Shown one piece after another: positions 14,263-41,621 of a stretch of 64,000 nucleotides of DNA. Position 1 is the first letter of the stretch. Every line of letters begins with the position of its first letter. The notes under the pieces were generated by a model, which made no database searches, was not told where the DNA came from, and was given only the letters and a program-made list of their open reading frames with translations. A program made the position numbers and the translations under genes. This DNA is from Henriciella sp. (lineage in GTDB: Bacteria; Pseudomonadota; Alphaproteobacteria; Caulobacterales; Hyphomonadaceae), in contig NZ_JAPYRE010000004.1 of the NCBI RefSeq assembly GCF_029936995.1, forward strand, positions 124,001 through 188,000, in the 5' to 3' direction.

Positions 14263-14315
14263 GGTAAGATCCAATTCCTGTTTATTAATTTAGCATTCAT
14301 TGCCAGCTTGCCGGC

Positions 14316-15983: not shown

Positions 15984-15998
15984 GTCAATCTCCCTCGC

Positions 15999-16556: not shown

Positions 16557-16583
16557 GCCTGCCTCGCGCGCTGACCTGATAGC

Positions 16584-16826
16584 TCATTCGTACAGCGTTT
16601 TCACCAACCCTGTGAGATCGTCGATCGTTTTCACGGATTCGAATTGTTCTGGAGCCACTTTTTTCCCGGTGAGCTCCTGAAGGTGAACCATCATGTCGAC
16701 GCCATCAATGCTGTCGAGTTCCAGATCATCCATAAGCGTGGCTTCGGGCACAATCTTTTCAGGCTCGATTTCGAAGATCTCCACAAGGTCTGTCTTGATA
16801 CGGATGAAGGCTTCTTCCCGCGTCAT
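16584..16826 (-). CDS. acyl carrier protein, second of a pair
   Basis: 80-aa acidic four-helix carrier protein. The phosphopantetheine attachment serine lies in LELDSIDGVDMMV (DSID). It overlaps the upstream ACP by one base (TGATG). Tandem ACPs are a hallmark of aryl-polyene systems, where one carries the growing chain. It is likely modified by the phosphopantetheinyl transferase at 18655. Confidence 0.93.
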   Translation of the reverse strand: MTREEAFIRIKTDLVEIFEIEPEKIVPEATLMDDLELDSIDGVDMMVHLQELTGKKVAPEQFESVKTIDDLTGLVKTLYE

Positions 16827-17095
16827 CAGGATTTTACCTCCCTGCGCGTTTCGACGAGGTGTGCCAAGGCCTTCAGGTTCTTGAAATGCTCGGGCAGCTT
16901 CTCGTCATTCGTGTCGAGCTTCACACCATAGCGCTTCTGGATCGCAACGCCGATTTCGAGTGCATCAATTGAATCGAGCGCTAGCCCATCATCGGAAAAC
17001 AGGTCTTCTTCAGCGCCGATATCTTCGGGTGTGACATCTTCGAGATTGATGACATCAACAATCAATTCTCTCAGCTCAGCTTCAAGTGGTGTCAC
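16826..17095 (-). CDS. acyl carrier protein, first of a pair
   Basis: 89-aa carrier protein with the attachment serine in GLALDSIDALEIGVAIQ. It differs clearly from its neighbour (longer, FSDDGLALDSID and a basic C-terminal tail RREVKS), so the pair is not a recent duplication and the two may have separate partners. Overlaps the acyltransferase gene by four bases (ATGA) and the next ACP by one. Confidence 0.93.
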   Translation of the reverse strand: MTPLEAELRELIVDVINLEDVTPEDIGAEEDLFSDDGLALDSIDALEIGVAIQKRYGVKLDTNDEKLPEHFKNLKALAHLVETRREVKS

Positions 17096-17904
17096 TGGAA
17101 GAGCTCCCTTTCTATCCGCTCCTGCACATCCCGCGCCAAGCGTCTTACCCCGGAAACCGACCGTTCATAACCGTAAGTTTTAGCTGTATCAATCTGTTCA
17201 TGTACCTGGATATTCCAGTGAGGTCTGATTGTGGGAATGGAGTACCAAGGCTCACCTTTTCGAAGGGTGGGCGGATTCACCTCAATCGTCACAAACAGTA
17301 TTGGTGCTTGCGCAGTCAGCGCCACATAGGCAAATCCACGCTGGTATTTTGCCCGCTGTCCAACTGGTGTGCGGGAGCCTTCCGGAAAGATGCACAGGTT
17401 CGCACCGTCCTTGAGTGCTGCTGCGCAGTCTTCAATCAGCGCTTCCGGGTCGTCCAGATTTGGAATGTAGTTACAGGACCGCACGACGCCGGCCATGAAG
17501 GGATTGTTCCAGACACCCTTTTTTACCACAGCACGGGTGCGCTGCATGAAAGCCATCAAGAATACGACGTCGATCAATGATGGATGGTTGGCGACAACAA
17601 CAGTACCCCGGCATGCTTTGAGCTTTTCCGCATTGTGAATTTCATAGGTTAGCACCCCGAGTACGCGCATGAGTTCTATGTAGAGCCGCCAGATTCGGTG
17701 GACTGATGCCTGCGATATGGCCGCGCGACGTTCCTTTTCGCGTACAAAGAGGTTCACCAATGGGAACCAGACGAGCGCCATTACGAGACCGCCTATACCA
17801 AAAACTGAGAAGGAAAGGCCTGTCGCGACGAGTCTCCACGCCCGGGCAATGGTCCATTTGCCGCGAACAATAAGTCGCGATCTATCGCGGTTTCCGTCTA
17901 CCAT
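17092..17904 (-). CDS. PlsC-type 1-acylglycerol-3-phosphate acyltransferase-like protein
   Basis: 270-aa membrane-bound acyltransferase. A membrane helix at about residues 27-52 precedes the catalytic motif HX4D in VVANHPSLIDVVFL and the substrate-binding motif LCIFPEGSRTP. It is the second acyltransferase of the cluster; the first (6707) is of the LpxL type. In aryl-polyene clusters the PlsC-type enzyme is thought to esterify or transfer the chain to a lipid acceptor. Starts inside the end of the ketosynthase-like gene (7-base overlap). Confidence 0.88.
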   Translation of the reverse strand: MVDGNRDRSRLIVRGKWTIARAWRLVATGLSFSVFGIGGLVMALVWFPLVNLFVREKERRAAISQASVHRIWRLYIELMRVLGVLTYEIHNAEKLKACRGTVVVANHPSLIDVVFLMAFMQRTRAVVKKGVWNNPFMAGVVRSCNYIPNLDDPEALIEDCAAALKDGANLCIFPEGSRTPVGQRAKYQRGFAYVALTAQAPILFVTIEVNPPTLRKGEPWYSIPTIRPHWNIQVHEQIDTAKTYGYERSVSGVRRLARDVQERIERELFQ

Positions 17905-18554
17905 GATACAGCTTTTACGCCTGCTTCTGCGGCATGAAACAAATCAAGCGGGCCGTCATCGGCAAGAAGTCTGCGGGCCGAAAGTGATTCGTCAGTGTAG
18001 CGCTCAAGTAGCAAGCAGAAATGTATATCACTCGAAGCCGGCCCGAAGACTGCATACTCATCGCGTAGACGGCATTCCGCATACGTAAGGATGACCTGGT
18101 CTTCGTTTTCTTGCAGCCGCATCCAGCATTCAGTCAGGGCGGCATTCAGCGTATGTTCGCCGGCCGAAATTGCCGTGTGTCCAGCCCTGTTCGCCGTGAT
18201 CTGACTTGCTGTACCGATCGCAGCATTGTGCACGGAAAGAGAGAAGCTGGTGGGCGATAGTAGTTCACCTGAGATGACATTCTTCAGAAGTTCCAGGGTC
18301 TTGGAAATATCGCCATAGCGAGAAGCAAGCACGACGGGTGTATCGCCAAGGTTATTCCCCAGCCCTGTGAGACAGGCGGCCGTGGCTTTTTCGAAATAGG
18401 TCAGGCGTCGAACCTGTCGCCTTGGCAGGGAAGATATATCTGCAGCATAGCCAAAGAGCTTACCGTCTCCGTCTTCTCGCAAGATACCTGAAAAACGCCG
18501 CACGGTGAGATGCCGGTGCACGCTACGCGCCGTATTTGCGCTGAGTGCAACCAT
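17898..18554 (-). CDS. ketosynthase-like chain-length-factor protein (no catalytic Cys)
   Basis: About 218 residues, only the length of an N-terminal ketosynthase half. The motif LSPTSFSLSVHNAAIGTASQI marks the beta-ketoacyl-synthase family called chain length factor (ketoacyl-synt_2, PF13723). The catalytic Cys and His-His of true ketosynthases are absent. It likely forms a heterodimer with one of the full ketosynthases (20957 or 23395) and limits polyene length. Start taken at an ATG four bases after GGAG; an in-frame ATG at 18572 would add six residues. The 82-base gap to the divergent phosphopantetheinyl transferase must hold its promoter. Confidence 0.8.
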   Translation of the reverse strand: MVALSANTARSVHRHLTVRRFSGILREDGDGKLFGYAADISSLPRRQVRRLTYFEKATAACLTGLGNNLGDTPVVLASRYGDISKTLELLKNVISGELLSPTSFSLSVHNAAIGTASQITANRAGHTAISAGEHTLNAALTECWMRLQENEDQVILTYAECRLRDEYAVFGPASSDIHFCLLLERYTDESLSARRLLADDGPLDLFHAAEAGVKAVSW

Positions 18555-26953: not shown

Positions 26954-29374
26954 CTATGGTGCATCACAGTGCCAGCAGGTTTCATATGCTGTCATGCCAA
27001 TAGGACCGCCGGGAGGAAGGTCGCCTTCAGCAACAGCAGGCGGGCTGGCCGGGGCAGGGGTCTCGAAGAAAGTCTGGATTCTGTCTTTCAGCCAGATGCT
27101 ATGGGCTTCTCCGCGCGCATCAAGGTCGGCCGCGAGAGCCTGCAGGCCAGCAGAGGCCACAGCTTTGACCGCCGTCGTTGTGTCTTCATCTGTCGCCAAC
27201 TCCATCAATGAGAAGGCATAGCGCGCCCGCACGGCTTCTGCGATGGGAGTGGTGCGTTCGGAATTTTGGGCCGACATGACCGCTTTGCGAATGGTGTCCA
27301 GGACCTCCTCGGCACTGGGGTTCCGGCTGTCTCGACGGTGGAACTCAATCAATCGAGCCACGCGTTCGGGTGCGAGCAGCACGTCGAAAGTCAGCCCGGC
27401 GGCGGTGTCAGCTGCAGCCGTCACATCAAAAGCCGGGTTCGCTGTACTCTGGAACAATTCACGCTTGCTATCTGCAAGGGTGTAGTTTGAAACCGAAGGT
27501 GTAAGCAGGGCAAGTACACTGTCTGGTAGATCGAGCGTAGCTGGACTGATCGTCTGTAGGACCGCCTCAAGGGCGGCTCTTTGACGGTCCGGGGCGACTG
27601 TTTCCGCACCGGGCCAGCCATCACCACGCAAACCATAATTGAAGCTCATCCCGCCAATGAGTTTCGCGGCTGCGGCTGTCTGATAGCGGTGATAGAGATA
27701 GATCGGAACGATGACATTGTTAAGATCGGCCACCGGTTGACCTTCCTGAACCCGGTCCCTTCCGAAATTTTCAAGCGCGATGCGGCGCACGACGAGGCTC
27801 TCTTCAAGGGCGGCGACGGGATCAGGTCCGTTATCCCAGATATTGCCAAGCGGATGGCCTGTACTTGCGCTCCGGGCGTCTTCATCAGCTACGTAGATAA
27901 GCCCGTCTGCGCGAGCTTCTTTCACGAGCTCGTTACGTTCCTGCCTGCTCATATCGCCATAAAGCCAGGTCGCGGCGAATTTATCCCAGTCGCCGATGCC
28001 GACGCCATAGACGTGGCTGAAATCGAGCTTGCCATTATTTACGCGAACATCCGGTGCCGGATAGTCCATCACTGACCCCTTGCCATAGGTGCTGGCGGCA
28101 AAATTGTGAGCAAAGCCGAGCGCGTGGCCGATCTCATGGGCCGAGAGCTGACGGATACGGGCAAGGGCTAGCTGAACAGGGTCTTCCGGCTCGCCGGTGC
28201 CTGTGTTTGCTGTGCCGGTTAGACCTTCGAAGATCATCCTGTCCTGTCGCACGCGCAGGGAGCCCAGTATAACGTGTCCTTTCAGCATTTCCCCTGTTCG
28301 CGGATCGGATATACCGCCTCCATAGGACCATCCGCGTGTCTGACGATGAACCCACTGCACCACATTGTAGCGGATATCGAGAGGGTGCGCGTCTTCAGGC
28401 AGGATCTCCACCCGGTAGCCATTCGGATACCCTGCTGACGCGAAGGCGTCGCCCCACCATCTGGCCCCGTCAACAAGGGCCTCCTGTATGGGCTTAGGGG
28501 CACCGGGGTCGATATAGAAAACAATCGGATCGACCGTCTCACCAGACTCGTTCTTTTCAAGCCTGTAACGCCGGGCAAGACGGGTCTCGACAGGTTCGGC
28601 GAGGCCAGCACTGTAGTCATAGTGCACAAGATCGATCACACCGGCCCTTGGGTCAGATGGCAGGGGTGTGTAGCCTTCTTCCGGCAGGCGCGCGAAAGAG
28701 TGATGCTGGGTCAGTGTCACGTCCCGGCCGTTGGCAGTCGTGGTTGAGACCTCGCGTCCTGGATCTGTGCTTGTAAGGGTAAGAAAGACATCGATCTCGA
28801 TATTATCTGGAAACGCCAGAACATTAGACGGATCGACGAAAGTGCGTTCCTCAGAGATTTCAAAACTGCCCTGATCGGCATCATCAAGATGCTGGACAAG
28901 GTTTAGCGTGTCGCTGGTCAGGTAGTCGGTGAGATCAATGGTGATACCGTCATCCTGTGACACGATCTCGGTGCTTGCGACAAAGGATGTGGCGAAACTC
29001 TCCCGCACAGCGCGAGCTTCGAGCGGATTATCAGGATCAGCACGATAGGTCTGGTTTTCGACCTCAAGAATTACGCGGTCTCCCATCTTGCGAAAGATGA
29101 GAATTTCACCGCTGGAACCCCATCCGCGGTCCAGTCCAACCGGGTTCGAGCCAAGCCCGGCTTTCAGACGCACACTATGGATGGCACGCAGGAGGACACC
29201 ATTTTTACCAGGCGTCGGGAGTGTGGCGTGCAGCGTGTTATCGTCTTCGTTGAACGTTAGACTTATGAATGCGTCATCCTTAGCGGACAGGTTTTCCAGC
29301 ACGGCTTCCTGTGCCTGGGCCCGCCCGAATGTGATGCCGAGTGTCAATACCAGAACAACAAAAGCCAGACGCAT
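26954..29374 (-). CDS. secreted zinc-dependent metalloprotease (DUF5117/DUF4953 type)
   Basis: 806-aa exported protease. Start at 29374 follows GGGAGA by five bases and gives a signal peptide (MRLAFVVLVLTLGITFGRAQ). The extended zinc motif HEIGHALGFAH spans residues 413-423 (ligands 413, 417, 423), followed by a Met-turn-like GSVMDYPAPDV. Family hallmarks upstream are the regions of RYRLEKNE and FYIDPGAPKPIQEAL and, downstream, YLYHRYQTAAAAKLIGG. The C-terminus carries a CWHC pair five residues from the end, which I do not recognise from the family. It follows the VWA gene by 108 bases on the same strand, so it may be expressed with that operon. Confidence 0.86.
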   Translation of the reverse strand: MRLAFVVLVLTLGITFGRAQAQEAVLENLSAKDDAFISLTFNEDDNTLHATLPTPGKNGVLLRAIHSVRLKAGLGSNPVGLDRGWGSSGEILIFRKMGDRVILEVENQTYRADPDNPLEARAVRESFATSFVASTEIVSQDDGITIDLTDYLTSDTLNLVQHLDDADQGSFEISEERTFVDPSNVLAFPDNIEIDVFLTLTSTDPGREVSTTTANGRDVTLTQHHSFARLPEEGYTPLPSDPRAGVIDLVHYDYSAGLAEPVETRLARRYRLEKNESGETVDPIVFYIDPGAPKPIQEALVDGARWWGDAFASAGYPNGYRVEILPEDAHPLDIRYNVVQWVHRQTRGWSYGGGISDPRTGEMLKGHVILGSLRVRQDRMIFEGLTGTANTGTGEPEDPVQLALARIRQLSAHEIGHALGFAHNFAASTYGKGSVMDYPAPDVRVNNGKLDFSHVYGVGIGDWDKFAATWLYGDMSRQERNELVKEARADGLIYVADEDARSASTGHPLGNIWDNGPDPVAALEESLVVRRIALENFGRDRVQEGQPVADLNNVIVPIYLYHRYQTAAAAKLIGGMSFNYGLRGDGWPGAETVAPDRQRAALEAVLQTISPATLDLPDSVLALLTPSVSNYTLADSKRELFQSTANPAFDVTAAADTAAGLTFDVLLAPERVARLIEFHRRDSRNPSAEEVLDTIRKAVMSAQNSERTTPIAEAVRARYAFSLMELATDEDTTTAVKAVASAGLQALAADLDARGEAHSIWLKDRIQTFFETPAPASPPAVAEGDLPPGGPIGMTAYETCWHCDAP

Positions 29375-29482
29375 TACAGTCTCCCTCAAACCTTCAAACA
29401 GGTTAGAGGTACCAGTCTGGCGATGTCGAGACTGCAGCAGCAAACGATTTGACGTTATGTTCAATTATTGCCTGTGCCTGTC

Positions 29483-32400
29483 TTATTCAGCAGCAGATAT
29501 TTCAAGAGTTGTTGTCTTGTCGCTGACGACTTCGACCGTGCGGGTCTGACCGCCAGTGAAGACGATATTATAGCGACCGACAGGTAGCTCGATCGGTTCT
29601 CCATCAGTCGTGGCGGTTGCAAGAGTTTCACCGGTACTGTCGATGACCTCGAATTCCGGTCTTACAGCCGTTTCAAGGGCCTTAGTGAGTGAGTCTGCGT
29701 CGTCAGCTTCGAAGTACTTTCCATTCCCGGCTTCTGCCCAGTTGCTGAATGTCTCGTCGAGTTCGGCACCAACGGCAAATCCAACGATATTTACACGAAT
29801 GTCCAGGCCTTCTTCCTTCAGGTCTTTCAGAACGGCTTCCGGGTCGCCATCGCAGGTTTCGTCTCCGTCTGTCAGGAGTACGATGAGGGGTATGCCCGCA
29901 GCCCCTTCGAGGTCCTGTGCCACCAATTGCAGGGATTCCGCGATTGGTGTCTTGGCGAGGTTGCGCGCTTGTATCTCATCAAGTCTGTCGACAAACCCTT
30001 CTTCGCTTAAGGGGGCCAGTGGACGAACCAGACGTGTATCGCAGCTGTCGGGTTCAAGATGGCCGAAGACACGCAGGGCAGCTGGCGTCGCTTCTGGCAG
30101 CCCCGAGGTCACGAGGTCGCGGATGGATGCTTTGGCAGCTGTGATACGTCGCCGCCCATCGGGCAGCCTCTGAAGCATGCTTCCCGAGGCATCAAGTACA
30201 ATCTCAACAGGGTTGAGTTTGAGCGCGGTAGCGCTTTCATCGTCTATGTTTCCGACAAGAGTGACCGCGAGCTTACCGGGGGGAGGTGGAGCTTGGTCAT
30301 AGGCATAGGCGGTTACCTCGAAGGGTTTCGGTCCACGCAGTCGGCCCATAGCTGTTTCGAACAGGTCAACGATCTGGGTCGGGTTGACCACTTCGGAAAA
30401 GCTTCCATCGGAGGCGAGCGTCATCCCACGCATGCGACGCCGCTGGAAGAACAGTGTCTGGCCACTTCCAAGTCCGCCGCCATTTATCTGTCCACCGAAC
30501 AAAAGCGTGCCGGTGTCTCTTAAAAGGTCATATGGACGACGGGTGCGGTAATCGATGGTCGGGTCATCCATATCGGTAATAACAAGCAGGCCGCGCGCAC
30601 CGGGCCGGGTCTCCAGCATGCTGAGTCCGGTCTCAATTGCCGTAGTGGCAGAACTGGAACTGTGCTCTGACACGCTTCTAAGAAGGGTTCGGATCGTTTC
30701 GCGTTCAGTATGCCACTCACCACCAAGCAGGGTTGAGCTGCCAAACGGCAAAAGCCCGATCGCATCGACTTCGGGGTCCACTTCTGCCGAAAGCATGTCC
30801 AGCGAGCGCAGGATAGCCGGCCTGAAGCTGCCAATAGAGCCACTCGTATCCCAGGTAACGAGTAGCGACCTGCGCGGCTCGCTGAACTGTAGGACATGCT
30901 TGCCAGGCTTGGCTTCTATGATGCGCAGGGCATGGCCTTCCGGAATGTCCAGCTCATTGCGTAGGGCTTCTGCCTTTTTCGAGCCGGGAGTGGTCAGTAA
31001 CGTGCCTTCCCCCCCAGCCATAAGTCGAACCTGTGGCAGGATTGTATGCGCCGGGTTGAATGCAAGCACGATCCTGTTCGTTTCTTCCGGAACAGTCACT
31101 TCATACTCTGGGGAGGTTGTGCCACGATCGACTATCCCGAAAACGGGCGCTTCAAGTGTCAGCTTTTCGCCTGAGGCGCCTTGTTCGGTATCTTTCGGCA
31201 GTTCGGGAATTCGCCGGGGCAGGCCATGGCCATAAAAACCCAGGGTCGAAGTATAGCCATTTCCCTGAGCGCGTTCGTAAACGCGTATGCCCTTTGCCAC
31301 CCGAATCTGACGTACGGACTCAAGGTCGGCATCCGGAGCATCGGCCACAAAACGCAGGTAGCGGGCTTCAACTGGATTATCCAGTACGAGCTCTGGTTCA
31401 TCACGCGTTAGTTTGCCGACGTCATCCCACGGCCCAGAAAGCGTGTCGCTGCTGGCCTGCACAAGTAAACCATCCAAGGCAGGGCGGCTTCTGCCATTGG
31501 ACTCAACCGGGCTCCAGTCCAGACGCGTGATTTCCGCACGGCGGTGAAAACGGAATGCGGTCGTGAAGCTCGGGGCAGGGTCATTCCAGCGGCGGAAGAC
31601 AGGGGTTTTGTCGCTGTTTTCCCTGATGATGGAAGTTCCATGCTGGAGGGGAGGAACCCCACCAAGCATCTCGCCGCCACGGCCAAACGCGCCGATTTCG
31701 TAGCCTTCACCATCCGTGGGGTCATAATCAGGGCTGGCGATGACCTTGATCTCACTGAGCGTCAGATCCCCGCCGCCGTAATTGCGCATGCGGAGGCGAA
31801 CACCATCGGTTTGAACGGGCGAGTCAAAAGGCAGGACGATTTCTTCCAGGCCGGTGGCCAGGCTTCCGCGCCATACCTCCTCCCAAGAGCTGCCATTCCG
31901 TGTTTCGACAACAGCGTGAGATGGCGCTGAACCCGGGTAGCGGCGAACCTGGTTAGGATGAGGATAGATAACGAGACCGGTAACGGGTGCGTTCTCGAAA
32001 CCGATAGCGACAACAGGTTCACGTGTGCCGCGCCCGATCCTCGCCTGGAAGTAACTTTTCCGTCCTACCATGCCATCAATCAGGGTGGCGAGGTCCTCGC
32101 GTTCGTCTTCATTCCTTGTCTCTTCCTCCAGCATGAAGCCGCCTGTTGTGGCTGCCGCAATATTCAGGCCGCCAAGCATGCTGTCGGGAATGCCGCGATC
32201 AGACGCTACCGCTTTCGGTGCGCGCCCGGCTTCGACAGGAATTTCGATCTCAGTGGCAGTCCGGCCTGCGCCTGTGACATCTGCGATGATCGAAACTGGC
32301 CGGCGAGCCGGCAGATTTTCTGGCAGGGCACCACTAAATGAGACATCTCTCGTCTCACCGCCGGGAATTTCGATTTCACGTGCATCGGGCCGCAGGTGTG

Positions 32401-34723
32401 TGCCAACCAGGCTTGCACGAATGTCCAGCCGGGCTGTCGCGGGTTCATCGCCATCATTTATGATCTTGATTGTTCCTCCCACAGGCTGTGGAGCAGCCCA
32501 GTGAGCAGCGAGTGGAAGTGTGTCTTCCTGCAACGTCAGCGTGGCCGACAGCTCAGCCGTGCTAGGGTCCGGCGGCGTTTCTCCGGAGGGCCAGACCGTC
32601 AGGTCATAATCGCTTTTACCATCTTCTATCCGAAGAAAGACCGGTGCCTTACCTGGCAGTTTCCCACTTCCGGAGCCGCTACGGTCGTCAGCAACAGACA
32701 GCTCCTGCACCGTATCGTTCGCGCTGTCGACGATTTCCAGCTCGGCCCCGCCAGCTTCACCCGTCACAATGAGGGAGCGACTCGCCCATGTGTCGGGTAG
32801 CCGATAGATGTCATAGGGGCCATAATATCTTGCCCATTCGCCAAAGTCGTCGAAACCGCCCTTGACCCTGCCATCGAGAGGTAAGTCCCCCGCCGTTTCG
32901 GGACTGTTATTTGGTTCACGATCAATGCGGCTGGCGAATTCACCTCTATCTATGGCTTCGAGAGAGAGCGTGTAGGAAGCATTGTCGCCCCAACGCTTGA
33001 TGTTGATCATGGATTCGCCAGCTTCGAAACGACGTTCCATGACATATGTGCTGCCGCCTTCGACATTTGCATCGAAGTCGCCGCCAGTAACAGGATAGAC
33101 TTCGTATTCGACACCTGCGACTTCCCCGACCTCCAGCGTCACTCGCATCGGGGTGGCCGTTTCCGTGGAAATCAGGAAACCGTCTGAACCGTCGCCTGTG
33201 GCCAGAGCACCGGAACGCTTGTCTCCGGGCGACATAGGCGTTGCGGTACGGCGATCATTGTTCGGTTCGAGCTCGCGGTCATTTGATACCTCTCCGAGCC
33301 GGGTTGCTTCGATATAATACCGTCCGTCGCCGTCATTCTCCTTCCCGCGCATGGTGAAAAGGTGGCGTCCAGCTGGCAGGACGAGACTGTCCAGCGTGGC
33401 CTGCCTTCCACTGCTCTCCGAAGTAAGGTTACCATACCGGCCTCCATCATAGGTCAGGTAACCCAGGTTTTCGGAAGCAGTGACATTCACCCGCCAGGTT
33501 GCCTGGTCCTTCGTCTCCAGCATGAAGGAGTCATATTCTGTTCCGAGGAGCCGGCCTTCGGCTTTTCCTGAAGCTGGCAACAGGTGGGCATCAGATCGCG
33601 AGCTATTAGGTTCTCCAAGGGCACGGCTTGCGGGGCCATGCGGCTCGGTAAGGCTCAATTGATAGTCAAGCGGGGTTTTGTCGTCATGGGAGACGGAAAC
33701 CAGCAGCGGCACGCCCGTCTTGGTTTCAAGCGCTTCGAAACCGACCCGGCGGCGTCCATTGCGACACTCGGCTTCTCCTCCTTCGGAACTGACACATAAT
33801 TCCAGTGTGTCGAGTCCGATACCGCGTAGCCTGAGACCGCGGCGTTCGCCGTCTTCGAGTTCCAGAAGGTAGTGATCCTGGTCGCCGCCGTCAGACAGCC
33901 GCCCGCGTATGAAGTCAGTTTCTCCGAAGGGCTGGGCGTTGGCCGAATTGTCATTGGGTTCACGCTCACGCTCAGGTCGGTGTTGGCCTTCAGGCGTGAC
34001 ATTAATCTGCCAGGTAGATTCATCCCTGGCGTCTATGTGCAAGGTGTATGAGCCTGGATCCAGACCGTATGATGAGAGGTCTATGCGTCCCCAGCCGTTT
34101 GTACGGCGGCTGACAATATGCCCTCCTTCAGATCTCCGCAGTACGAGCGTAGTTGAGTTCACGGAGGAACCACTGAATGCGATGTTCCAGAGTTCTTTTG
34201 AGCCCGCCTCATCTATTTCCCATTCAATGGTCGAATCGCCTGAGCCGCCCTGGCTGATTGCGGCTTTCTCGGGTGTCGAAGCCGCTTCTTCGAGGGCGAT
34301 GGAGTAATCCACCGTACCACCAGCTCTGGACAGGCCGATGATATAATCGCCGTCAATGAGGGAAAGAGGAACTTCCACGTTGCCGCCGCCAATGGGCGTA
34401 GACGTAGAAGCGATGCGCTCAGCATCGGTCAGATCCCCTTCATCATTTCGCGTGAGAGCAAAAAGGTCGGCTTGCAGAAACCCTGCGCCCTCAGACGAAA
34501 TCACCATCCGCCCATTATTATCGTTCAGCTGAGGGATGAAGGCATCTTGGTCATTGCCTGCCATGTTGCCTGCAACACATGCACCTGTTGTCAGGGGCAT
34601 AGCATTCGAGGGTTTGTTGTTGGGTTCGGACTCCTTTCTCTCACAGGCAAGAGCGGGAAGCGTGCTCATAAAGGCGGCGGTCAGTGATGCCGCGATGAGG
34701 CGGGACGACATAACCATACTCAT
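29483..34723 (-). CDS. giant secreted protein with PPC-like repeats and two VWA domains
   Basis: 1746-aa exported protein. The start ATG at 34723 overlaps the upstream stop (ATGA), giving a signal peptide (MSMVMSSRLIAASLTAAFMS, cleavage near ALA-C). The N-terminal half carries five pre-peptidase-C-like modules, each opened by an E-P-N motif (ESEPNNKPSN, EREPNDNSAN, GEPNSSRSDA, ELEPNNDRRT, DREPNNSPET). Two discoidin-like beta-sandwich stretches follow (VETRNGSSWEEVW and SPVESNGRSRPALDG regions). Two von Willebrand A domains end the protein: MIDAS DTSGS near residue 1330 and DASGSM near residue 1500, the second with LIVLLTDGDETCDGD. A short terminal beta domain may dock to a surface partner. 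I do not recognise the full architecture. Secreted and adhesive or scaffolding by domain content. Confidence 0.82.
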   Translation of the reverse strand: MSMVMSSRLIAASLTAAFMSTLPALACERKESEPNNKPSNAMPLTTGACVAGNMAGNDQDAFIPQLNDNNGRMVISSEGAGFLQADLFALTRNDEGDLTDAERIASTSTPIGGGNVEVPLSLIDGDYIIGLSRAGGTVDYSIALEEAASTPEKAAISQGGSGDSTIEWEIDEAGSKELWNIAFSGSSVNSTTLVLRRSEGGHIVSRRTNGWGRIDLSSYGLDPGSYTLHIDARDESTWQINVTPEGQHRPEREREPNDNSANAQPFGETDFIRGRLSDGGDQDHYLLELEDGERRGLRLRGIGLDTLELCVSSEGGEAECRNGRRRVGFEALETKTGVPLLVSVSHDDKTPLDYQLSLTEPHGPASRALGEPNSSRSDAHLLPASGKAEGRLLGTEYDSFMLETKDQATWRVNVTASENLGYLTYDGGRYGNLTSESSGRQATLDSLVLPAGRHLFTMRGKENDGDGRYYIEATRLGEVSNDRELEPNNDRRTATPMSPGDKRSGALATGDGSDGFLISTETATPMRVTLEVGEVAGVEYEVYPVTGGDFDANVEGGSTYVMERRFEAGESMINIKRWGDNASYTLSLEAIDRGEFASRIDREPNNSPETAGDLPLDGRVKGGFDDFGEWARYYGPYDIYRLPDTWASRSLIVTGEAGGAELEIVDSANDTVQELSVADDRSGSGSGKLPGKAPVFLRIEDGKSDYDLTVWPSGETPPDPSTAELSATLTLQEDTLPLAAHWAAPQPVGGTIKIINDGDEPATARLDIRASLVGTHLRPDAREIEIPGGETRDVSFSGALPENLPARRPVSIIADVTGAGRTATEIEIPVEAGRAPKAVASDRGIPDSMLGGLNIAAATTGGFMLEEETRNEDEREDLATLIDGMVGRKSYFQARIGRGTREPVVAIGFENAPVTGLVIYPHPNQVRRYPGSAPSHAVVETRNGSSWEEVWRGSLATGLEEIVLPFDSPVQTDGVRLRMRNYGGGDLTLSEIKVIASPDYDPTDGEGYEIGAFGRGGEMLGGVPPLQHGTSIIRENSDKTPVFRRWNDPAPSFTTAFRFHRRAEITRLDWSPVESNGRSRPALDGLLVQASSDTLSGPWDDVGKLTRDEPELVLDNPVEARYLRFVADAPDADLESVRQIRVAKGIRVYERAQGNGYTSTLGFYGHGLPRRIPELPKDTEQGASGEKLTLEAPVFGIVDRGTTSPEYEVTVPEETNRIVLAFNPAHTILPQVRLMAGGEGTLLTTPGSKKAEALRNELDIPEGHALRIIEAKPGKHVLQFSEPRRSLLVTWDTSGSIGSFRPAILRSLDMLSAEVDPEVDAIGLLPFGSSTLLGGEWHTERETIRTLLRSVSEHSSSSATTAIETGLSMLETRPGARGLLVITDMDDPTIDYRTRRPYDLLRDTGTLLFGGQINGGGLGSGQTLFFQRRRMRGMTLASDGSFSEVVNPTQIVDLFETAMGRLRGPKPFEVTAYAYDQAPPPPGKLAVTLVGNIDDESATALKLNPVEIVLDASGSMLQRLPDGRRRITAAKASIRDLVTSGLPEATPAALRVFGHLEPDSCDTRLVRPLAPLSEEGFVDRLDEIQARNLAKTPIAESLQLVAQDLEGAAGIPLIVLLTDGDETCDGDPEAVLKDLKEEGLDIRVNIVGFAVGAELDETFSNWAEAGNGKYFEADDADSLTKALETAVRPEFEVIDSTGETLATATTDGEPIELPVGRYNIVFTGGQTRTVEVVSDKTTTLEISAAE

Positions 34724-37203
34724 TCGTAGCATTTTCCGGAGAGATTGAGTTTCTGGCCGACAATGCCACCCATGAAGGCCGCATTGATCGATATGAAAGC
34801 GACTGCAAAAGCGACGGCTGGATGCCCGACCTTGAGGCTGCCTACCATCCCTGCGCCAGCCGGGCCCATTGGTATTGCACTCGTAACCAGGCAACAGGCC
34901 AGACTGCCGCCTTTCTTGTTGAAGTCGTCACTCATGCATTTCTGGATATCTTCGGCCATCAGGTAGGTAGACATGGTGTTCAGAACCAGGCAGAGCAGAT
35001 TCAGAAACTCTTGGTATTCCGCGCCACGACCCGTATCGAGCATGGCGAGAGTTTCACCTGTTTCCTGGTTCACCCGCCACCACGCGGCATAGGGGACGCC
35101 TTCAGGCAAGCTCTTATGGACCAGGACGGTGAAACCGGATTCCAGGTCTCGCTGGATAGCTTTCCTGCTGACATGAGGCAGGTTAAGGTCTCCGAACTCG
35201 GCAGGAAGTGCTAGTTTTTCTGACTTCTCGTCGTCTAGGGCAGCGAGGGTGACAAGCGGAATCTCTTCCTCATTGGCCTTTTGCAATATGGTTTCAGTGT
35301 CGTAGGTGGTCGTGTTGTCTTCGGCGGGAGTGATGTCGCCTTCCAGGCGGCTCATCCACAACCCCGCACGAAGCCCTTCACGTGGATTCATGCCGCCCGC
35401 ATCTGCCGTAAGAGCAAGTACGGGGCTTGAGATGAGATCGACAACATTGCGCATGCCATATTTTGTGTCCTCTCCGTCAGTTCCGGCCACTGCGCCTTCG
35501 ACACCGATCATACGCACAAGGGGGCGCACAGGCATTAATATGGATGGTTCCTCCATGCCCATTGCTCCGGTATTCAGGCCCAGCCGGGCCAGTGGCCACC
35601 GCAGGCGCCCAAGGTTATCGGATTCGGGAATGCGGCTCTCTGCATAGGCGAGAAGGGTCAACGGCATCGATGGATCGAGATCGGATATAACCTCGGAAAC
35701 CGGAGGTAGTTTTTCAGGCTGAACCATGTCTCGAAAGACGTCATATTCGATGAGGTTCGCAATCCCGCGCGCCTGTTCAACCATCGCGGCAGCAACTCCG
35801 GTGTCCGTTATGCGACCAGTGCGTGCTCCGATAAGATAGGTCCCGGTCAGTCCTGCCGCGATATGTCCGGATGGGCGGGTAGGGATAGAGCCATTACTAT
35901 CAGTGGCATCGTAGAGGATGCGGGTGTCGTGACGATCGGGCAGACCGGGTGCCTGACTTGTAATGTCGAGACGAAGGCTGCGGATGGCGAGAACGTCTGT
36001 ATTCTCGTCTCCACTCAGCGCGGCAATTGCGCTTTCACCCCTGTCAGAAACGGTCGCAAAGAGATCTGCCATGCCATAGGCCTGCGCGCCCAGGGCCTCA
36101 GGAGGAACGACCGTTCCGCTCAGGGTGAAAGGATCATGGGCGCGTTGGCCATTAAGTCCCACTAGCATGAACTGTGCTTGTTCCATGGCAGCGGTGATGT
36201 CGGCTTGTGGATTGGAGGCCAGCGTGTCGGGAATGATGGAAAGCGTCACCGGATTGCGCGCCAGTTCAGGGCCGGGAACTTCCTCAAGTTCAGCGAGCTT
36301 CAGCGTCTTCGTCTCGCCATCACCTTCCTTGATTTCCATATACAGTCTGATGGTGATGCGCTGAACTGCGCTGTCGGGCAGGGCATTGTAATAGGCATCC
36401 TCGACCCCTTCGAGAGAGGGCGGAGCTTCTCCTCCCGGCCATGCAGGGTGTGCATTTGACCATGCCCCGGCAGGTTCATCACGATACTGGACCCACCAGT
36501 AATCCTGCGCAGCTTTTATGATCCATTGCGGAAGGTCCGACTCTTCAGGTGGTGCGGCTGTTCCTAAAGCGGCTAGAAGCTGTTCCTGCTGTTCGTCCAG
36601 TTCTGCCTTCAGTGACTCGTTATCTTCTGTGGTACGCGTACCGGGCAGGTCTTCGAAGCTGACTTGTTCTTCAGAAAAGGTCTCTTTGAGTTCCTTGATT
36701 GCCTCATCCGTAAAGGCGGGTTGGCCTGAAGAGGGGCGTGACAGGGTTTTTACGAGTGCTTTGCCATCTTCTGCACTGATTTGTCCTTTCACGAGACGTG
36801 CTTCCAAGCCTGCCCTATTCAGCATTGTCGCGAGAAGGACAGCTTGGTCTATCGCATTGCCGCTCAGTGATGACAGTGTGCCATCTGCCGCGCGAAGGCT
36901 GCCAGAATAAGGCAGGTAGCTTATTGAGTCTGTCACATCGGCAATGATTGAGTCTGGATCATTGCCGAGGGACCTTGCCCGGGCCAGCGGGTCAGTATGT
37001 TCGCGCTGGAGTCGGGCTTCCAGCTTGTCCAAATTACTCAGCCCACGCTCAATGTTGGCGAAGCGGGAGTAGACCTGGTCAAGATTTCCTTCTGATGGCA
37101 CATCTGCATAGGCTGGCGCAGGCCAGATGCAAAGGCCAACAATCGCCAGTGCCTGCAAACAGGTTGTCAGCGCCGACATAAATCGCGTCGCAAGGTGAGA
37201 CAT
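34720..37203 (-). CDS. secreted transglutaminase-like protein, partner of the VWA protein
   Basis: 827-aa exported protein with signal peptide (about residues 1-33, ending PAYAD). Residues about 110-150 (LSGNAIDQAVLLATMLNRAG and LEARLVKGQIS) follow the pattern around the active-site region of transglutaminase-like folds (GxxxDxxxLLxxLLRxxGxxAR), but a catalytic Cys is not at the usual place: Asn/Asp occupy it, so it may be a non-catalytic relative. The middle has several beta-rich segments; the C-terminus has a cluster of cysteines (LACC) and one or two hydrophobic stretches (AVAFAVAFISINAAFMGGIV) that may anchor it. An AGGAGGGG ribosome site precedes the ATG. Its stop overlaps the start of the giant VWA protein, so the two are almost certainly co-produced. 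Function unknown. Confidence 0.72.
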   Translation of the reverse strand: MSHLATRFMSALTTCLQALAIVGLCIWPAPAYADVPSEGNLDQVYSRFANIERGLSNLDKLEARLQREHTDPLARARSLGNDPDSIIADVTDSISYLPYSGSLRAADGTLSSLSGNAIDQAVLLATMLNRAGLEARLVKGQISAEDGKALVKTLSRPSSGQPAFTDEAIKELKETFSEEQVSFEDLPGTRTTEDNESLKAELDEQQEQLLAALGTAAPPEESDLPQWIIKAAQDYWWVQYRDEPAGAWSNAHPAWPGGEAPPSLEGVEDAYYNALPDSAVQRITIRLYMEIKEGDGETKTLKLAELEEVPGPELARNPVTLSIIPDTLASNPQADITAAMEQAQFMLVGLNGQRAHDPFTLSGTVVPPEALGAQAYGMADLFATVSDRGESAIAALSGDENTDVLAIRSLRLDITSQAPGLPDRHDTRILYDATDSNGSIPTRPSGHIAAGLTGTYLIGARTGRITDTGVAAAMVEQARGIANLIEYDVFRDMVQPEKLPPVSEVISDLDPSMPLTLLAYAESRIPESDNLGRLRWPLARLGLNTGAMGMEEPSILMPVRPLVRMIGVEGAVAGTDGEDTKYGMRNVVDLISSPVLALTADAGGMNPREGLRAGLWMSRLEGDITPAEDNTTTYDTETILQKANEEEIPLVTLAALDDEKSEKLALPAEFGDLNLPHVSRKAIQRDLESGFTVLVHKSLPEGVPYAAWWRVNQETGETLAMLDTGRGAEYQEFLNLLCLVLNTMSTYLMAEDIQKCMSDDFNKKGGSLACCLVTSAIPMGPAGAGMVGSLKVGHPAVAFAVAFISINAAFMGGIVGQKLNLSGKCYE

Positions 37204-37365: not shown

Positions 37366-37872
37366 CTAGCTTGAGAGGTTCGCGAAGACTTCAGAGGCAT
37401 CATAAAGTGACGGGCTGACGCTAGCGTCCTTGTCAGACATGAAAATCTCAAGTGTCACGGTCACGCTGTTACGCTCGCGTTCGATATCGCTGGCGAAGGG
37501 ATCGCGTATAGGCGCTACCCTTGAAGAGCAGCCAAGCAAGCCGCAGTCGCGCTGTACCGCATAGTCGGGGCCGGACGAGTCGAAAGTCTGCTCACGTTCG
37601 GTCTCCTTGTCAGAAGCCTTGGACACAAGCTCGAACGTATCATAGCCGCTTTCCAGTGTCAGTTCGGCGGCACGTCGCAGGGCCAGGGATTGTGCACGAG
37701 CAGAGTCGTCATCATTCAGGCGGTAACTGACAGTATAGCGGTTCGTCTCAATCTGTGTCTCCGAGTATCCGGTTGCCCGCGCATTTGTGGCTGGGCGATA
37801 ATCCGGAACGCTTGCACAGGCGCCCATCAAAAGGAGACCGCCGGCCAAGCCGATGGATTTAAGCTGGATCAT
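37366..37872 (-). CDS. CC0125/CC1285-family lipoprotein
   Basis: 168-aa lipoprotein. The signal ends in a lipobox (GLLLMGACASVP), and the start of the mature part (DYRPATNARATGYSETQIETN followed by RYTVSYRLN) matches the family named after Caulobacter CC0125/CC1285, known only as a small envelope lipoprotein of unknown function. It begins four bases after the anti-sigma gene, so it is probably the third gene of the sigma operon. Confidence 0.82.
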   Translation of the reverse strand: MIQLKSIGLAGGLLLMGACASVPDYRPATNARATGYSETQIETNRYTVSYRLNDDDSARAQSLALRRAAELTLESGYDTFELVSKASDKETEREQTFDSSGPDYAVQRDCGLLGCSSRVAPIRDPFASDIERERNSVTVTLEIFMSDKDASVSPSLYDASEVFANLSS

Positions 37873-37876
37873 GAAT

Positions 37877-38680
37877 TCAGTCCTCTTCTTTGGCTGGTTG
37901 TGTCCAGCCTGTTCGTATCAGTTCGGTCTCAGCACCTGTACTGAGCGGAGCGTCTTTCATCGCCGCATCGAGATATGCCTCGATACTTTCTGGAGCGGCG
38001 GATGATGCTGTACGGTAGGGGGCATCGGGAGAAGTTTCGCTGGCTTCGGAAAAAGCGGCAACTGTGACGCGCCAGGCGGAGTCCGTGCGGCAGGCGACCA
38101 TCCGCCCCTCTGATCGTGCCCCGGTGATATCTACAACACGGCAGTAACCATTGCTTTCTTCAAAGGTGAAGCGCGGCGTTGCAGAAAGGCCACCCGGGAG
38201 TCTGGCGGTCGCCCCACTTGCAGACGCATCCAGAACCTTGCCCAGACCGCTATCGGCTTGAATTGTGCCAGCGCCATCCAAGACCTCGACACGGGCATCC
38301 TGGGTGGGAATGGCTGTTTGCAGGGTCACGGCACCTGCTGCTACGGCGACGCTTGCAGCGATTGCCCGATGGTCACGCAAAAATCTCCAAGGGGAATGAA
38401 AAGCAGGAGCGGCGAAAAAACCAGATGATGTGGAGGCTGCACCGTTACTGGATTCCAACCGGTCGAGAACAGCTGTCAGCGAAGCGCTCATGGGAATGCT
38501 GTCGATTTCTCGTGCGGCGTGGTCAAAGTCTGAATCGGCTTGTGAGAGTTCCTCCAGTCGCGCAGCGGTGGCCGGATCCGCTGCAATAAGCCTTTCCAGC
38601 TCCTTACGTTCAGCATCAGGTAGCTCATCGTCGAGATAGGCGCTCAAGCGGATATCGAGGTCATGGGAGTCACTTGTCAT
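37877..38680 (-). CDS. transmembrane anti-sigma factor
   Basis: 267-aa protein. Start at the ATG at 38680, overlapping the sigma gene end by 11 bases. The N-terminal about 80 residues are an anti-sigma helical domain (MTSDSHDLDIRLSAYLDDEL and ERKELERLIAADPATAARL), without the HxxxCxxC zinc signature. One membrane helix lies near residue 115 (AIAASVAVAAGAVTLQTAI). The periplasmic part (about residues 130-267) contains FTFEESNGYCRVVDITG. Its location directly after the ECF sigma gene supports sequestration of that sigma until an envelope signal leads to release. The next gene is a lipoprotein, and a subtilase is divergent. Confidence 0.85.
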   Translation of the reverse strand: MTSDSHDLDIRLSAYLDDELPDAERKELERLIAADPATAARLEELSQADSDFDHAAREIDSIPMSASLTAVLDRLESSNGAASTSSGFFAAPAFHSPWRFLRDHRAIAASVAVAAGAVTLQTAIPTQDARVEVLDGAGTIQADSGLGKVLDASASGATARLPGGLSATPRFTFEESNGYCRVVDITGARSEGRMVACRTDSAWRVTVAAFSEASETSPDAPYRTASSAAPESIEAYLDAAMKDAPLSTGAETELIRTGWTQPAKEED

Positions 38681-39167
38681 GATATCCAGTCCTTTCTGCC
38701 ACCATGGCACGTGCTCGCCCCAGACGGCTCATGATAGTACCAACTGGCGTATCGAGCATCGCTGCGGCCTCCTTGTAGCTTGCTCCCCCAATACCAATGA
38801 CGGTCATGACCTCGCGGTACACAGGCGGCAGAGTGTCGATAGCTTCTCTTGTGCGCGCGACCATCACCTGGTCGCTGGCGATCTGTTCTGAAGACAGTGT
38901 TGTGCCCACGCGGGTTTCCAGTTCCGGGACAGCTTCCATACGGGTTTTCGTCGCTCGCAGCCCATCGATCCACAAATTCCGGCACACCCTGAACATCCAT
39001 TTCTTCAGCTCCACATCATCTGGCACGCCGCGGTCGAGTATGCGCTCGATCACGCTTTGGACCAGGTCATCTGCATCCGCCGCACGCCGCGTCAGCGACC
39101 ATGCGAAGCGCCGCAAGTGCGGCACCATTTCGACGATTCTGTCGTTCAAATCCGGACGTTTTGACAT
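38670..39167 (-). CDS. ECF-family RNA polymerase sigma factor
   Basis: 165-aa sigma-70 family protein with region 2 (PHLRRFAWSLTRRAADADDL, then IERILDRG and KKWMFRVCRNLWIDGLR) and region 4 (LPPVYREVMTVIGIGGASYK then DTPVGTIMSRLGRARA). It heads an operon with its anti-sigma and a lipoprotein. Its own promoter region contains a GGGAATAAAA-type -35 and TCCGT -10 motif (39180-39204), which suggests autoregulation. Confidence 0.94.
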   Translation of the reverse strand: MSKRPDLNDRIVEMVPHLRRFAWSLTRRAADADDLVQSVIERILDRGVPDDVELKKWMFRVCRNLWIDGLRATKTRMEAVPELETRVGTTLSSEQIASDQVMVARTREAIDTLPPVYREVMTVIGIGGASYKEAAAMLDTPVGTIMSRLGRARAMVAERTGYHDK

Positions 39168-39179
39168 TTCCCCTCAATC

Positions 39180-39204
39180 ACGGATGGGCTGCAGTTTTAT
39201 TCCC
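39180..39204 (-). promoter_or_regulatory. candidate ECF promoter of the sigma operon
   Basis: Read on the - strand: GGGAATAAAA, a 10-base spacer, TCCGT. The same arrangement and spacing recurs upstream of the gene at 41714-42550. The geometry (GGAATA to CGT about 15 bases apart) matches ECF promoters. The -10 ends only 12 bases before the sigma ATG, so the leader would be very short. Autoregulation by the sigma factor is inference. Confidence 0.55.
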
Positions 39205-39269
39205 AGCTTTATGAAATTTTTTTCTGGGTCATTCGTCCCTATTATAAGAAATGAAAGAATGGGTTCACC

Positions 39270-40700
39270 ATGAATATTTCCATCCCGCCTCTATACCCTG
39301 TCATCATTTGCTCCGCTGTCATCGGTAGTATGTGTCCCTTCGCTTCCGCCCAGGTGTTGCCCGATGTTGGTGCAGGCGTGCGCGATACGACCGACCGTAT
39401 TGGCCGGCATGTTGAGAAGTCGGTCGAAGAGGAACTGGAAGACAGGGTTATTGGGTTTGATGAGGCAGTTGACCCACTTCAGATTCTCGAAAACGGTGAA
39501 GTTGTGGAATCTGCAGATGTTGGAAACACACTTGATCAGACACTTTCGCTTGTAAACGAAACAGAAAAAACTGTTCTGGGAATCACCGGTCTGGCTGGGC
39601 AGCTGGCTGTGGGACGGGAGATCGAGCTGGACACATTTGAAGGCTGGACTGTCATTCGCAATGAATGGGTGGTGGTTGTGCCATCTAGCCAGGCCGGCGA
39701 GGTCGAGGCACTGGATGTTGACATTGTCGAGCGCAGCACTCTGACATCGTCGAACGAAACACTCTTTATCATCAGTCTGACAGCAAAATCGGCCACAGCC
39801 GAAGCGATTGAAGGTGAACTTTCCTCTCTGGGCGCAGAGCCTTATGACCGAAATCACGTGTTTCGGGTTGCTGCACCGCAGACAGACGCAGACGAGGCAT
39901 CGCCCGCTTTCTCAGCGCCAGAAACTGTTAGCCCGGCTCGTACAAAAGCCAGCCGTATCGGACTGATTGATACAGATGTTGACGAGACCCACCCTGTATT
40001 CGGTGACGTCGTCCTGCATGAAGCTGATTTTGTAAGTCTGGGGCGCCTGCGCCCGCAGACCCACGGTACAGCCACGGCGTCCATCCTGGCACATCAGAAG
40101 ACTGTTGAAGGAGCTAAAGTCGAGCGGGAGATACTTGCCGCTTCGGCTTTTTTTCTCGCAGGTGATGGGACCACAGGGGCGAGCTCTGCCAGCATCATCC
40201 GCGCGATTGATTGGCTTCAGGCCAGCGGTGCTAACGTCATAAATATTAGTCTTACAGGCCCTCCAAACCGTGCGCTTGAAGCCGTTATCCGCAATAGCAT
40301 GTCCAATGGCACCATTTTTGTTGCGGCTGTCGGCAATGAAGGCCCGGCTTCCGGTCCTCTTTATCCGGCCGCCTATCAAGGGGTCATCGGTGTGACGGCG
40401 GTGGATAAGGATGGACAGGTCTACCGGTGGGCCAATCGTGGCAGAATGGTCGATGTGGGCGCGATTGGCGTCGATGTAAGTGTGGCCAGGCCAGGCGGTG
40501 GGGAGCAACTTGATTCCGGAACCTCCTTCGCTGCTCCCGTCGTATCGGCTTTTCTCGCCGGTTGGACGGGGGGGCAGCAGATCCACAACGGAGCCGGAGA
40601 AAGCATGATCAGGGCCTCGACAGGTGCTGAGAGCCCGGATGCGCGTGATGACACGCTAGGATATGGAATACTCATCCCCGATACGATCGACGGGAACTAG
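39270..40700 (+). CDS. S8-family (subtilisin-like) secreted serine protease
   Basis: 476-aa exported subtilase. Signal peptide at the N-terminus (cleavage near residue 28, ASAQV). A long propeptide-like segment (about residues 30-220, with no strong family match) precedes the catalytic domain. Catalytic residues: D234 in SRIGLIDTDVDE, H265 in THGTATASILA, oxyanion N356 in AAVGNEG, and S419 in DSGTSFAAPVVS. It is transcribed divergently from the sigma operon 102 bases away. Such pairs often couple envelope proteolysis to sigma control, but whether this protease acts on the anti-sigma factor is not shown. Its stop directly abuts the stop of the convergent barrel gene. Confidence 0.9.
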   Translation: MNISIPPLYPVIICSAVIGSMCPFASAQVLPDVGAGVRDTTDRIGRHVEKSVEEELEDRVIGFDEAVDPLQILENGEVVESADVGNTLDQTLSLVNETEKTVLGITGLAGQLAVGREIELDTFEGWTVIRNEWVVVVPSSQAGEVEALDVDIVERSTLTSSNETLFIISLTAKSATAEAIEGELSSLGAEPYDRNHVFRVAAPQTDADEASPAFSAPETVSPARTKASRIGLIDTDVDETHPVFGDVVLHEADFVSLGRLRPQTHGTATASILAHQKTVEGAKVEREILAASAFFLAGDGTTGASSASIIRAIDWLQASGANVINISLTGPPNRALEAVIRNSMSNGTIFVAAVGNEGPASGPLYPAAYQGVIGVTAVDKDGQVYRWANRGRMVDVGAIGVDVSVARPGGGEQLDSGTSFAAPVVSAFLAGWTGGQQIHNGAGESMIRASTGAESPDARDDTLGYGILIPDTIDGN

Positions 40701-41621
40701 TTAGAAAGACAACCTCAGTTCAACCGATCCGACATGCTCGTCATAGTCGGCGCTTTCGAGGTTGGAGTTTCGGTCTCGGTACTCATAGCCGACATCCATG
40801 AAAACCGGTCCATAAAGGGGGATTTCAAGATCGCTTTCCGCTGAAACGATGCGATCTTCACGAGCTTCAGAGATTGAAGGTGTAACGGCATCATAGTCGC
40901 GTTTCTCGATCTCGCCGCCAATGCGGACTTTCGTGTCACGGCCGAGCAGGGGCATACGCTGGATGAAACGGGCCTTAGCGGAAGTATTTGTTCGGTCAAA
41001 AGCATCGGACTCGGCATCCTCCTCGCCTACCTCGCCGCCAAGCGTGACGTATTGTCGTGTGTCGTCGAGAAAGAAGAAGACATCCAGACGACCGGCATTT
41101 TCATCGGCGTCGCGGCTATCGTCCGTCTTGAAGTCCTTTTCTGTGCGGACAAATGCGGCGCGCAGATAAACTGAATTACCGAACAACCGGGAGATGTTGG
41201 GCGAAATCTGTGTGTAGTCGAGATAGCCTTCCTGATTGAGCCGGGCATGTGCGTAATTGGCCAGGAAACCAGCCTTGACCGCGCTGAAATCATATTCAGC
41301 CTCGGCGAAGCCACGATGGGTCTGCAAGTCGAAAGCATCGAAATCCTGGTAGCTTGTCTGATTGAATTCGTAGCCCCCACGAAGGGTGAGCTTGTTTGCG
41401 GGTTTGACATCCAGCTGGATTTTTCCTCCCAGTAGTAGGGCGATATCTCCTTGACCGGTGGACTGGTCCAGTTGCGGAGCACCTACATTGCTGTCCCCGG
41501 AGAGGCCCGTGCTCGTTTCGAAGGTAATTTTTGGCTCTTCATCAGCCTGGGCCGGCACGGTAACCGATGCGGCTGTCAGGAGAAGCAGTATGCTGCGCGG
41601 AAGCAAGGTCTGGATAGGCAT
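40701..41621 (-). CDS. outer-membrane beta-barrel, SLAM/DUF560-like
   Basis: 306-aa exported beta-barrel. Signal peptide (about residues 1-26, ending PAQAD). Many amphipathic strands: KLTLRGGYEFNQTSYQDF, GFLANYAHARLNQEGY, VYLRAAFVRTEKDF, YVTLGGEVGEED and the terminal VGSVELRLSF with a C-terminal Phe for BAM recognition. Length and strand pattern fit the C-terminal barrel of surface-lipoprotein-assembly-modifier proteins, but the N-terminal TPR domain of full-length SLAM is absent. Function unassigned; possibly a small porin or a lipoprotein translocator. Confidence 0.7.
   Translation of the reverse strand: MPIQTLLPRSILLLLTAASVTVPAQADEEPKITFETSTGLSGDSNVGAPQLDQSTGQGDIALLLGGKIQLDVKPANKLTLRGGYEFNQTSYQDFDAFDLQTHRGFAEAEYDFSAVKAGFLANYAHARLNQEGYLDYTQISPNISRLFGNSVYLRAAFVRTEKDFKTDDSRDADENAGRLDVFFFLDDTRQYVTLGGEVGEEDAESDAFDRTNTSAKARFIQRMPLLGRDTKVRIGGEIEKRDYDAVTPSISEAREDRIVSAESDLEIPLYGPVFMDVGYEYRDRNSNLESADYDEHVGSVELRLSF

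Follow-up and report, generated by a model that had tools for sequence, protein, structure and literature searches.

VWA and transglutaminase-like proteins recur together with MoxR ATPases, and BatA and BatB belong to such MoxR-linked operons. In the LapG/BTLCP periplasmic proteases and the pseudomurein endoisopeptidases PeiW and PeiP the triad is intact, and these enzymes are active cysteine peptidases; the tandem collagen-binding domain of ColG has what we take to be a PPC-type fold. In the literature searched, the closest counterparts of the locus described here are the inactive transglutaminases of polymorphic toxins, which have lost one or more triad residues, lie right after the signal peptide, and for which surface anchoring has been proposed (Zhang et al. 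2012, PMC3482391). Signalling systems that also enter the comparison are those of the ECF43 sigma factors and Hanks-type kinases, as in Xanthomonas EcfK/PknS, where EcfK is activated by kinase phosphorylation (PMC13147305).

The window analysed here, 64,000 nucleotides from Henriciella sp. (Hyphomonadaceae), carries on its minus strand a gene for an 827-aa transglutaminase-like protein (34720-37203; ORF, Pfam, hydropathy and alignment) and one for a double-VWA protein of 1746 aa (29483-34723; ORF, Pfam and hydropathy). As reported in the earlier note, the two overlap by ATGA (34720-34723), four bases in which the VWA gene begins and the transglutaminase gene ends with TGA, and the overlap suggests matched synthesis of two subunits. 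The length of 1746 aa is counted from the ATG at 34723; an alternative longer ORF of 1803 aa opens at an upstream TTG, and residue numbers of the VWA protein are given below in this long-ORF numbering. Both proteins appear to be exported, with typical N-terminal signal peptides by eye and by hydropathy, that of the transglutaminase-like protein covering approximately residues 1-33 and ending in APAYA. Compared with orthologues that are 57% (transglutaminase) and 65% (VWA) identical, both genes are under strong purifying selection (dN = 0.36 and 0.27, respectively, with dS saturated near 3). The 162 bases 5' of the transglutaminase gene showed nothing resembling a promoter or a terminator, and Rfam matched no RNA in the window.

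The transglutaminase/papain-like core of the first protein (residues 71-285; 36349-36993, minus strand) lies above the Pfam cut-off for Transglut_core (E = 1.2e-5). Its structure model, built with eight sequences and confident in the core only, was aligned by VIA-align to PeiW (Z = 10.8), PeiP (Z = 10.2) and LapG (Z = 9.6), and also to TglA and transglutaminases, over approximately 110-140 residues. Both Pfam and VIA-align hence place it in the transglutaminase-like superfamily fold. Over residues 460-827 of the protein the model is too weak to assign a fold. The Cys-His-Asp triad of an active transglutaminase or protease is not found, its residues being replaced by A117, Y235 and H252, respectively; because all three are replaced, the protein is, judged from its sequence, a pseudo-transglutaminase that has lost the whole catalytic triad. 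The loss thus goes further than the missing catalytic Cys that the earlier note had observed in this core. The Cys is absent from all eight aligned homologues, its place being taken by Ala or another non-Cys residue, mostly Ser, and the nucleophile position is Ala in the window protein and its orthologue in G018, the other pair-bearing Henriciella genome. Seven of the eight have Tyr at the His site and His at the Asp site, and only a Rhodobacteraceae homologue (L038) retains the catalytic His and Asp. By eye, a Chloroflexota fusion protein (L037) has Ser, His and Asp at the triad sites. The protein ends in a hydrophobic, Gly-rich tail (residues 756-827; 34723-34938, minus strand) that is recognised from its Cys positions, hydropathy and the alignment, and all four Cys of its C...CC...C pattern are kept in six of eight homologues.

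The second protein appears to be a long series of beta modules followed by two VWA domains, all encoded on the minus strand. Five EPN motifs are present against 0.3 expected by composition, the last four being spaced by 115-117 residues, and these open the five PPC-like modules proposed earlier. Module 1 (34280-34627) is the weakest of the five and, like module 5 (32561-32917), was identified by its motif, while modules 2 (33614-33961), 3 (33269-33613) and 4 (32918-33268) were identified by the motif and by comparison of a profile with solved structures. This family profile, made from seven homologues and run by sequence against the PDB, matched the tandem collagen-binding domain of ColG over two modules (E = 1.5e-7), which supports the PPC assignment for the family. 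ColG was also the top Foldseek match of the structure model, itself poor. Pfam did not recognise PPC in the window protein, and in a homologue (L090) PPC reached E = 1.6e-4, below the gathering score; the homologue of Indioceanicola profundi has near-threshold matches to PPC, F5_F8_type_C and FixG_C. The modules are followed by an Ig-like domain of FixG_C type (32222-32560), with a weak Pfam match, a Pfam match in a homologue, and a VIA-align match at residues 779-891 (Z about 11). Of the two discoidin-like stretches claimed in the earlier note, one is firm, an F5/8 type C (CBM32-like) domain at 31712-32173 (residues 908-1061) that is recognised by VIA-align (Z about 11.7), by Pfam in homologues and by the family profile against the F5/8C domains of galactose oxidase and sialidase (E about 2e-5 to 8e-3). 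The other (31250-31627) is beta-rich in the model and finds no firm family match, so that a second discoidin-like domain is doubtful.

The two VWA domains with intact MIDAS motifs were borne out in full. VWA1 (30335-30877; alignment and profile) has the MIDAS sequence DTSGS at residue 1349 and D1441, and VWA2 (29660-30211; Pfam, alignment and profile) has DASGS at 1568, T1649 and D1676 together with the conserved C1618 and C1681. The two VWA stretches pass Pfam by themselves (VWA_2, E = 2.1e-8), and the family profile matched a VWA protein structure at the position of VWA1 (E = 1e-7) and BatA and BatB at that of VWA2 (E = 1.5e-7 and 8e-7). Across the seven homologues DxSxS is invariant in both domains, as are D1441 of VWA1 and the MIDAS Thr and Asp of VWA2, so the DxSxS...T...D motif is present. 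VWA2-like domains by themselves are common in other proteins.

Homologous pairs were found at 13 loci in 12 genomes or records of Alpha- and Gammaproteobacteria. One of these is a second pair in the window genome itself (C17:27.8-35 kb), 120 kb away and 28-29% identical, which has the same order, transglutaminase gene before VWA gene, and again an ATGA overlap (L004:10069-10072). A contig scan with a single protein as query gave no match, while an alignment as query did; the search of genome contigs with a profile of the transglutaminase family returned seven loci, from a Henriciella MAG (with a pair 57% and 65% identical), from Alphaproteobacteria, Gammaproteobacteria and Sphingomonadales MAGs, and from Loktanella (L036), an Anaerolinea MAG (L037) and a Rhodobacteraceae MAG (L038). 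A VWA partner adjoins the transglutaminase gene in five of these seven, in reversed order in L038; among the five non-fused loci beyond Henriciella it is adjacent in four (L033, L034, L036 and L038), and the fifth, L035, has no VWA gene within its 6.3-kb MAG contig. In the Chloroflexota locus L037 the transglutaminase domain lies inside a giant fusion, with no VWA domain in the part of the protein examined. The pair of Indioceanicola profundi was found by way of the VWA protein alone, and has the transglutaminase gene directly upstream with a 4-base GTGA overlap. In a plasmid search, the Indioceanicola megaplasmid was the one plasmid with a long VWA match, and no plasmid gave a transglutaminase match at E = 1e-5.

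Within the order, full-length transglutaminase homologues (E below 1e-70) occur in seven of 299 genomes (G000, G018, G518, G553, G570, G578 and G607), which belong to four of the 54 genera, and full-length VWA homologues occur in the same seven and no others (probability of identical sets by chance 2.5e-14, kinship ignored). Full-length homologues of either gene occurring mostly alone, which would have spoken against a unit, are not what is observed here. The two genes lie 0-9.4 kb apart in these genomes, being adjacent in G000 (both copies), G018, G518 and G553 and separated by 2-9 kb in G570, G578 and G607. Both protein trees recover (window, G018), (G570, G578, G607) and (own second pair, L034, L081, L033, L080) as well-supported clades, while the long branches of L036 and L038 are not reliably placed. 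The two genes thus form a conserved unit, which supports the earlier note's reading that they belong together. The pair is also rare, and hence resembles an accessory unit that is exchanged or frequently lost: a first profile over 385 genomes of the class gave two matches, the second of them weak, and only two of 29 Henriciella species carry the pair, a scarcity that shows it to be dispensable.

Variant arrangements were seen at some of these loci. In G578, two VWA genes flank one transglutaminase gene (L078:5070-10538 and 13066-18552). The Loktanella cluster has a third gene (L036:15173-18484) for an exported protein with discoidin-like, Transglut_core2 and TPR regions, whose transglutaminase keeps Cys and His by eye and is possibly active beside the dead one. 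The giant Anaerolinea protein (L037:563-13390; over 4276 aa) has the same transglutaminase core at its N-terminus, together with a LysM-like stretch and long tandem arrays of adhesin-like repeats. In the window genome, approximately 10 kb from the second pair, genes for a LysM lipoprotein, a HAMP Ser/Thr kinase, a T6SS-type FHA protein and a PP2C phosphatase (L085:3822-8150; C17:43822-48150) resemble those for post-translational control of type VI secretion; no other T6SS genes were recognised by eye in this 20-kb stretch.

The pair sits between two unrelated neighbours. One of them encodes the zinc metalloprotease that had been proposed as a possible third member, a met-zincin (DUF4953/DUF5117; 26954-29464), and this proposal was rejected. 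Of 61 relatives, 27 have the metalloprotease, and almost all of these lack the pair, so the two do not always co-occur; it lies 94 kb from the pair in G018, the only other Henriciella genome with both, and its single copy in the window genome is not beside the second pair. The flanks of the metalloprotease in the window were not found beside it in five relatives. In five relatives looked at, its C-terminal residues ETCW[HF]C are conserved and resemble a metal or disulfide tail. An in-frame TAG in metalloprotease relatives is simply where their reading frames end, one or two residues short of the end of the window protein. The other neighbour is a block of five genes (37366-41621) for a CC0125-family lipoprotein, an anti-sigma factor, an ECF sigma factor, a divergent S8 protease and a BBP2-like beta-barrel. 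It was considered as a regulator or conserved member of the pair and dismissed, as the same order occurs without the pair in two Henriciella genomes (G021 and G025) and in another genus (G030); the ECF/anti-sigma/S8 block is a separate module. The best NCBIfam model for its S8 protease is mycosin, well below the cut-off.

The gene pair, its conservation and linkage, the fold assignments, the loss of the triad and the retention of MIDAS are observed. With moderate confidence, we read the two genes as encoding two subunits of one exported, metal-dependent binding or scaffold complex of the cell envelope. The pseudo-transglutaminase would keep its fold without catalysis, a fold that binds peptide substrates in its relatives, and would probably serve as a peptide- or wall-binding scaffold, and its hydrophobic, disulfide-patterned tail probably holds it in or at the membrane. 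The VWA subunit, with a predicted PPC stalk leading through Ig-like and F5/8C/CBM32-like modules to the two VWA domains, would grip protein or glycan partners in a divalent-metal-dependent manner, and the pseudo-transglutaminase would tether it to the wall, the membrane or another protein. A peptidoglycan-binding domain (PG_binding_1, E = 1.6e-4) in one of seven VWA homologues fits an envelope location. We infer the physical complex, its membrane or wall attachment and its ligand binding from these features, and a role in adhesion or scaffolding is plausible. The two highly diverged pairs in one genome, both with the transglutaminase gene first and with ATGA, favour two cooperating subunits. 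Against this stand the lack of any predicted contact between the partners and the quality of the structure models (mean pLDDT 46), which are poor except in the transglutaminase core and some regions of the beta modules, as well as L035 without a nearby VWA gene, the L037 fusion, the three loci with 2-9 kb between the genes, and the presence of the pair in only two of 29 Henriciella species.

A regulatory role was suggested by genes beside other pairs. A sigma factor of the TIGR02999/PF07638 type and a receptor Ser/Thr kinase, the latter Hanks-type with one membrane helix and TPR repeats, lie next to the pair at six homologous loci (L033, L077/L086, L078/L088, L079, L080 and L081). In G570, G578, G607 and the genome of L033 this is the sole TIGR02999 gene of the genome, and the QTTA motif of ECF43 (PMC13147305) is present in the sigma factor of L079. 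It is therefore conceivable, albeit improbable in our estimate, that the pair forms the outside arm of a signalling system, as an exported complex whose presence an ECF43-type sigma factor and its receptor kinase would detect, or whose production they would control, and the activation of the related EcfK by kinase phosphorylation would accord with this. In both pair-bearing Henriciella genomes the module lies on the same contig as the pair: the window genome has one TIGR02999 gene, 55 kb away and next to a kinase (sigma 76% and kinase 60% identical to their counterparts next to the G607 pair), and that of G018 is about 111 kb away. However, sigma factor and kinase are not adjacent to the window pair, the second pair or the pair of G018, and no TIGR02999 gene was found in the genomes of L034, L036 and L038; they could also be linked to the pair for other reasons. 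The link is hence genuine for some members of the family, but cannot be required throughout. The fullest picture, a new kind of proteobacterial envelope system whose pseudo-transglutaminase and double-MIDAS VWA protein together make up an outside sensor-adhesin complex, coupled to ECF43 and receptor kinase and passed on as two genes among lineages that are far apart, is accordingly put forward only as a tentative and rather doubtful one.

The similarity of VWA2 to BatA and BatB, which are among its closest solved relatives, could also mean that the pair aids envelope assembly or folding by maturing another exported protein, in the manner of the MoxR-VWA-transglutaminase operons. We regard this as unlikely: no MoxR-type AAA ATPase occurs among the neighbours scanned, both proteins appear to be exported and to lack the Bat/TgpA membrane topology, and the transglutaminase is dead. 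A still smaller probability attaches to an enzyme with a rebuilt active site (Tyr/His/Ser) that would form, for instance, peptide or ester bonds on the VWA protein. The replacements are themselves conserved in seven of eight homologues, with Tyr for His and His for Asp, and could be read in this way, but the site of the nucleophile is variable, with Ala in both the window protein and its G018 orthologue. Least probable of all is a contact-dependent toxin or defence system. The RHS polymorphic toxins (PMC3482391), which contain inactive transglutaminases of this class, and the weaker transglutaminase matches in giant or RHS-like proteins would point to it. No RHS repeats, variable C-terminal toxin or immunity gene were recognised, the tail is conserved, and the anti-phage defence models of PADLOC matched neither protein of the pair, with no match for P0001, P0002, P0004 and P0005.

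The exported two-subunit binding complex is therefore the reading that we prefer. It would mean that a chemically dead transglutaminase fold has been kept, in scattered proteobacteria, as the dedicated partner of a giant and putatively metal-dependent binding protein; were the complex to bind cells or surfaces, marine Hyphomonadaceae would have in it a surface module that has not been described. The repeated ECF43 sigma and receptor-kinase neighbourhood may in addition offer a handle on the targets of little-studied signalling modules.

The earlier note knew of no described system with this make-up, and none was found in the literature searched, which was mostly non-subscription, so that this absence is weak evidence; likewise, no link between ECF43/kinase systems and such pairs was found there. 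Compared with EcfK-PknS (PMC13147305), six homologous pairs have the same sigma family and a receptor kinase beside them, whereas the window pair has not. Triad loss and a position right after the signal peptide are shared with the inactive transglutaminases of polymorphic toxins (PMC3482391), but the protein described here has, by Pfam, no RHS array or variable C-terminal toxin, its tail being conserved; it is a separate protein of 730-830 aa with its own Cys tail and a dedicated VWA partner gene. The core fold is that of LapG/BTLCP and PeiW/PeiP (VIA-align Z = 9.6-10.8), while none of their three triad residues is present. With the Bat/MoxR-linked VWA proteins the second protein shares a VWA2 domain with an intact MIDAS, but it is much larger, carries PPC, Ig and F5/8C modules, appears to be exported and has no MoxR gene nearby. 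The module folds are those of the ColG collagen-binding (PPC) domains and of CBM32/F5-8C, yet here they belong to a VWA protein in which no enzyme domain is recognised. We therefore rate the pair, as far as its sequence features indicate, as known domains in a conserved and apparently undescribed partnership.
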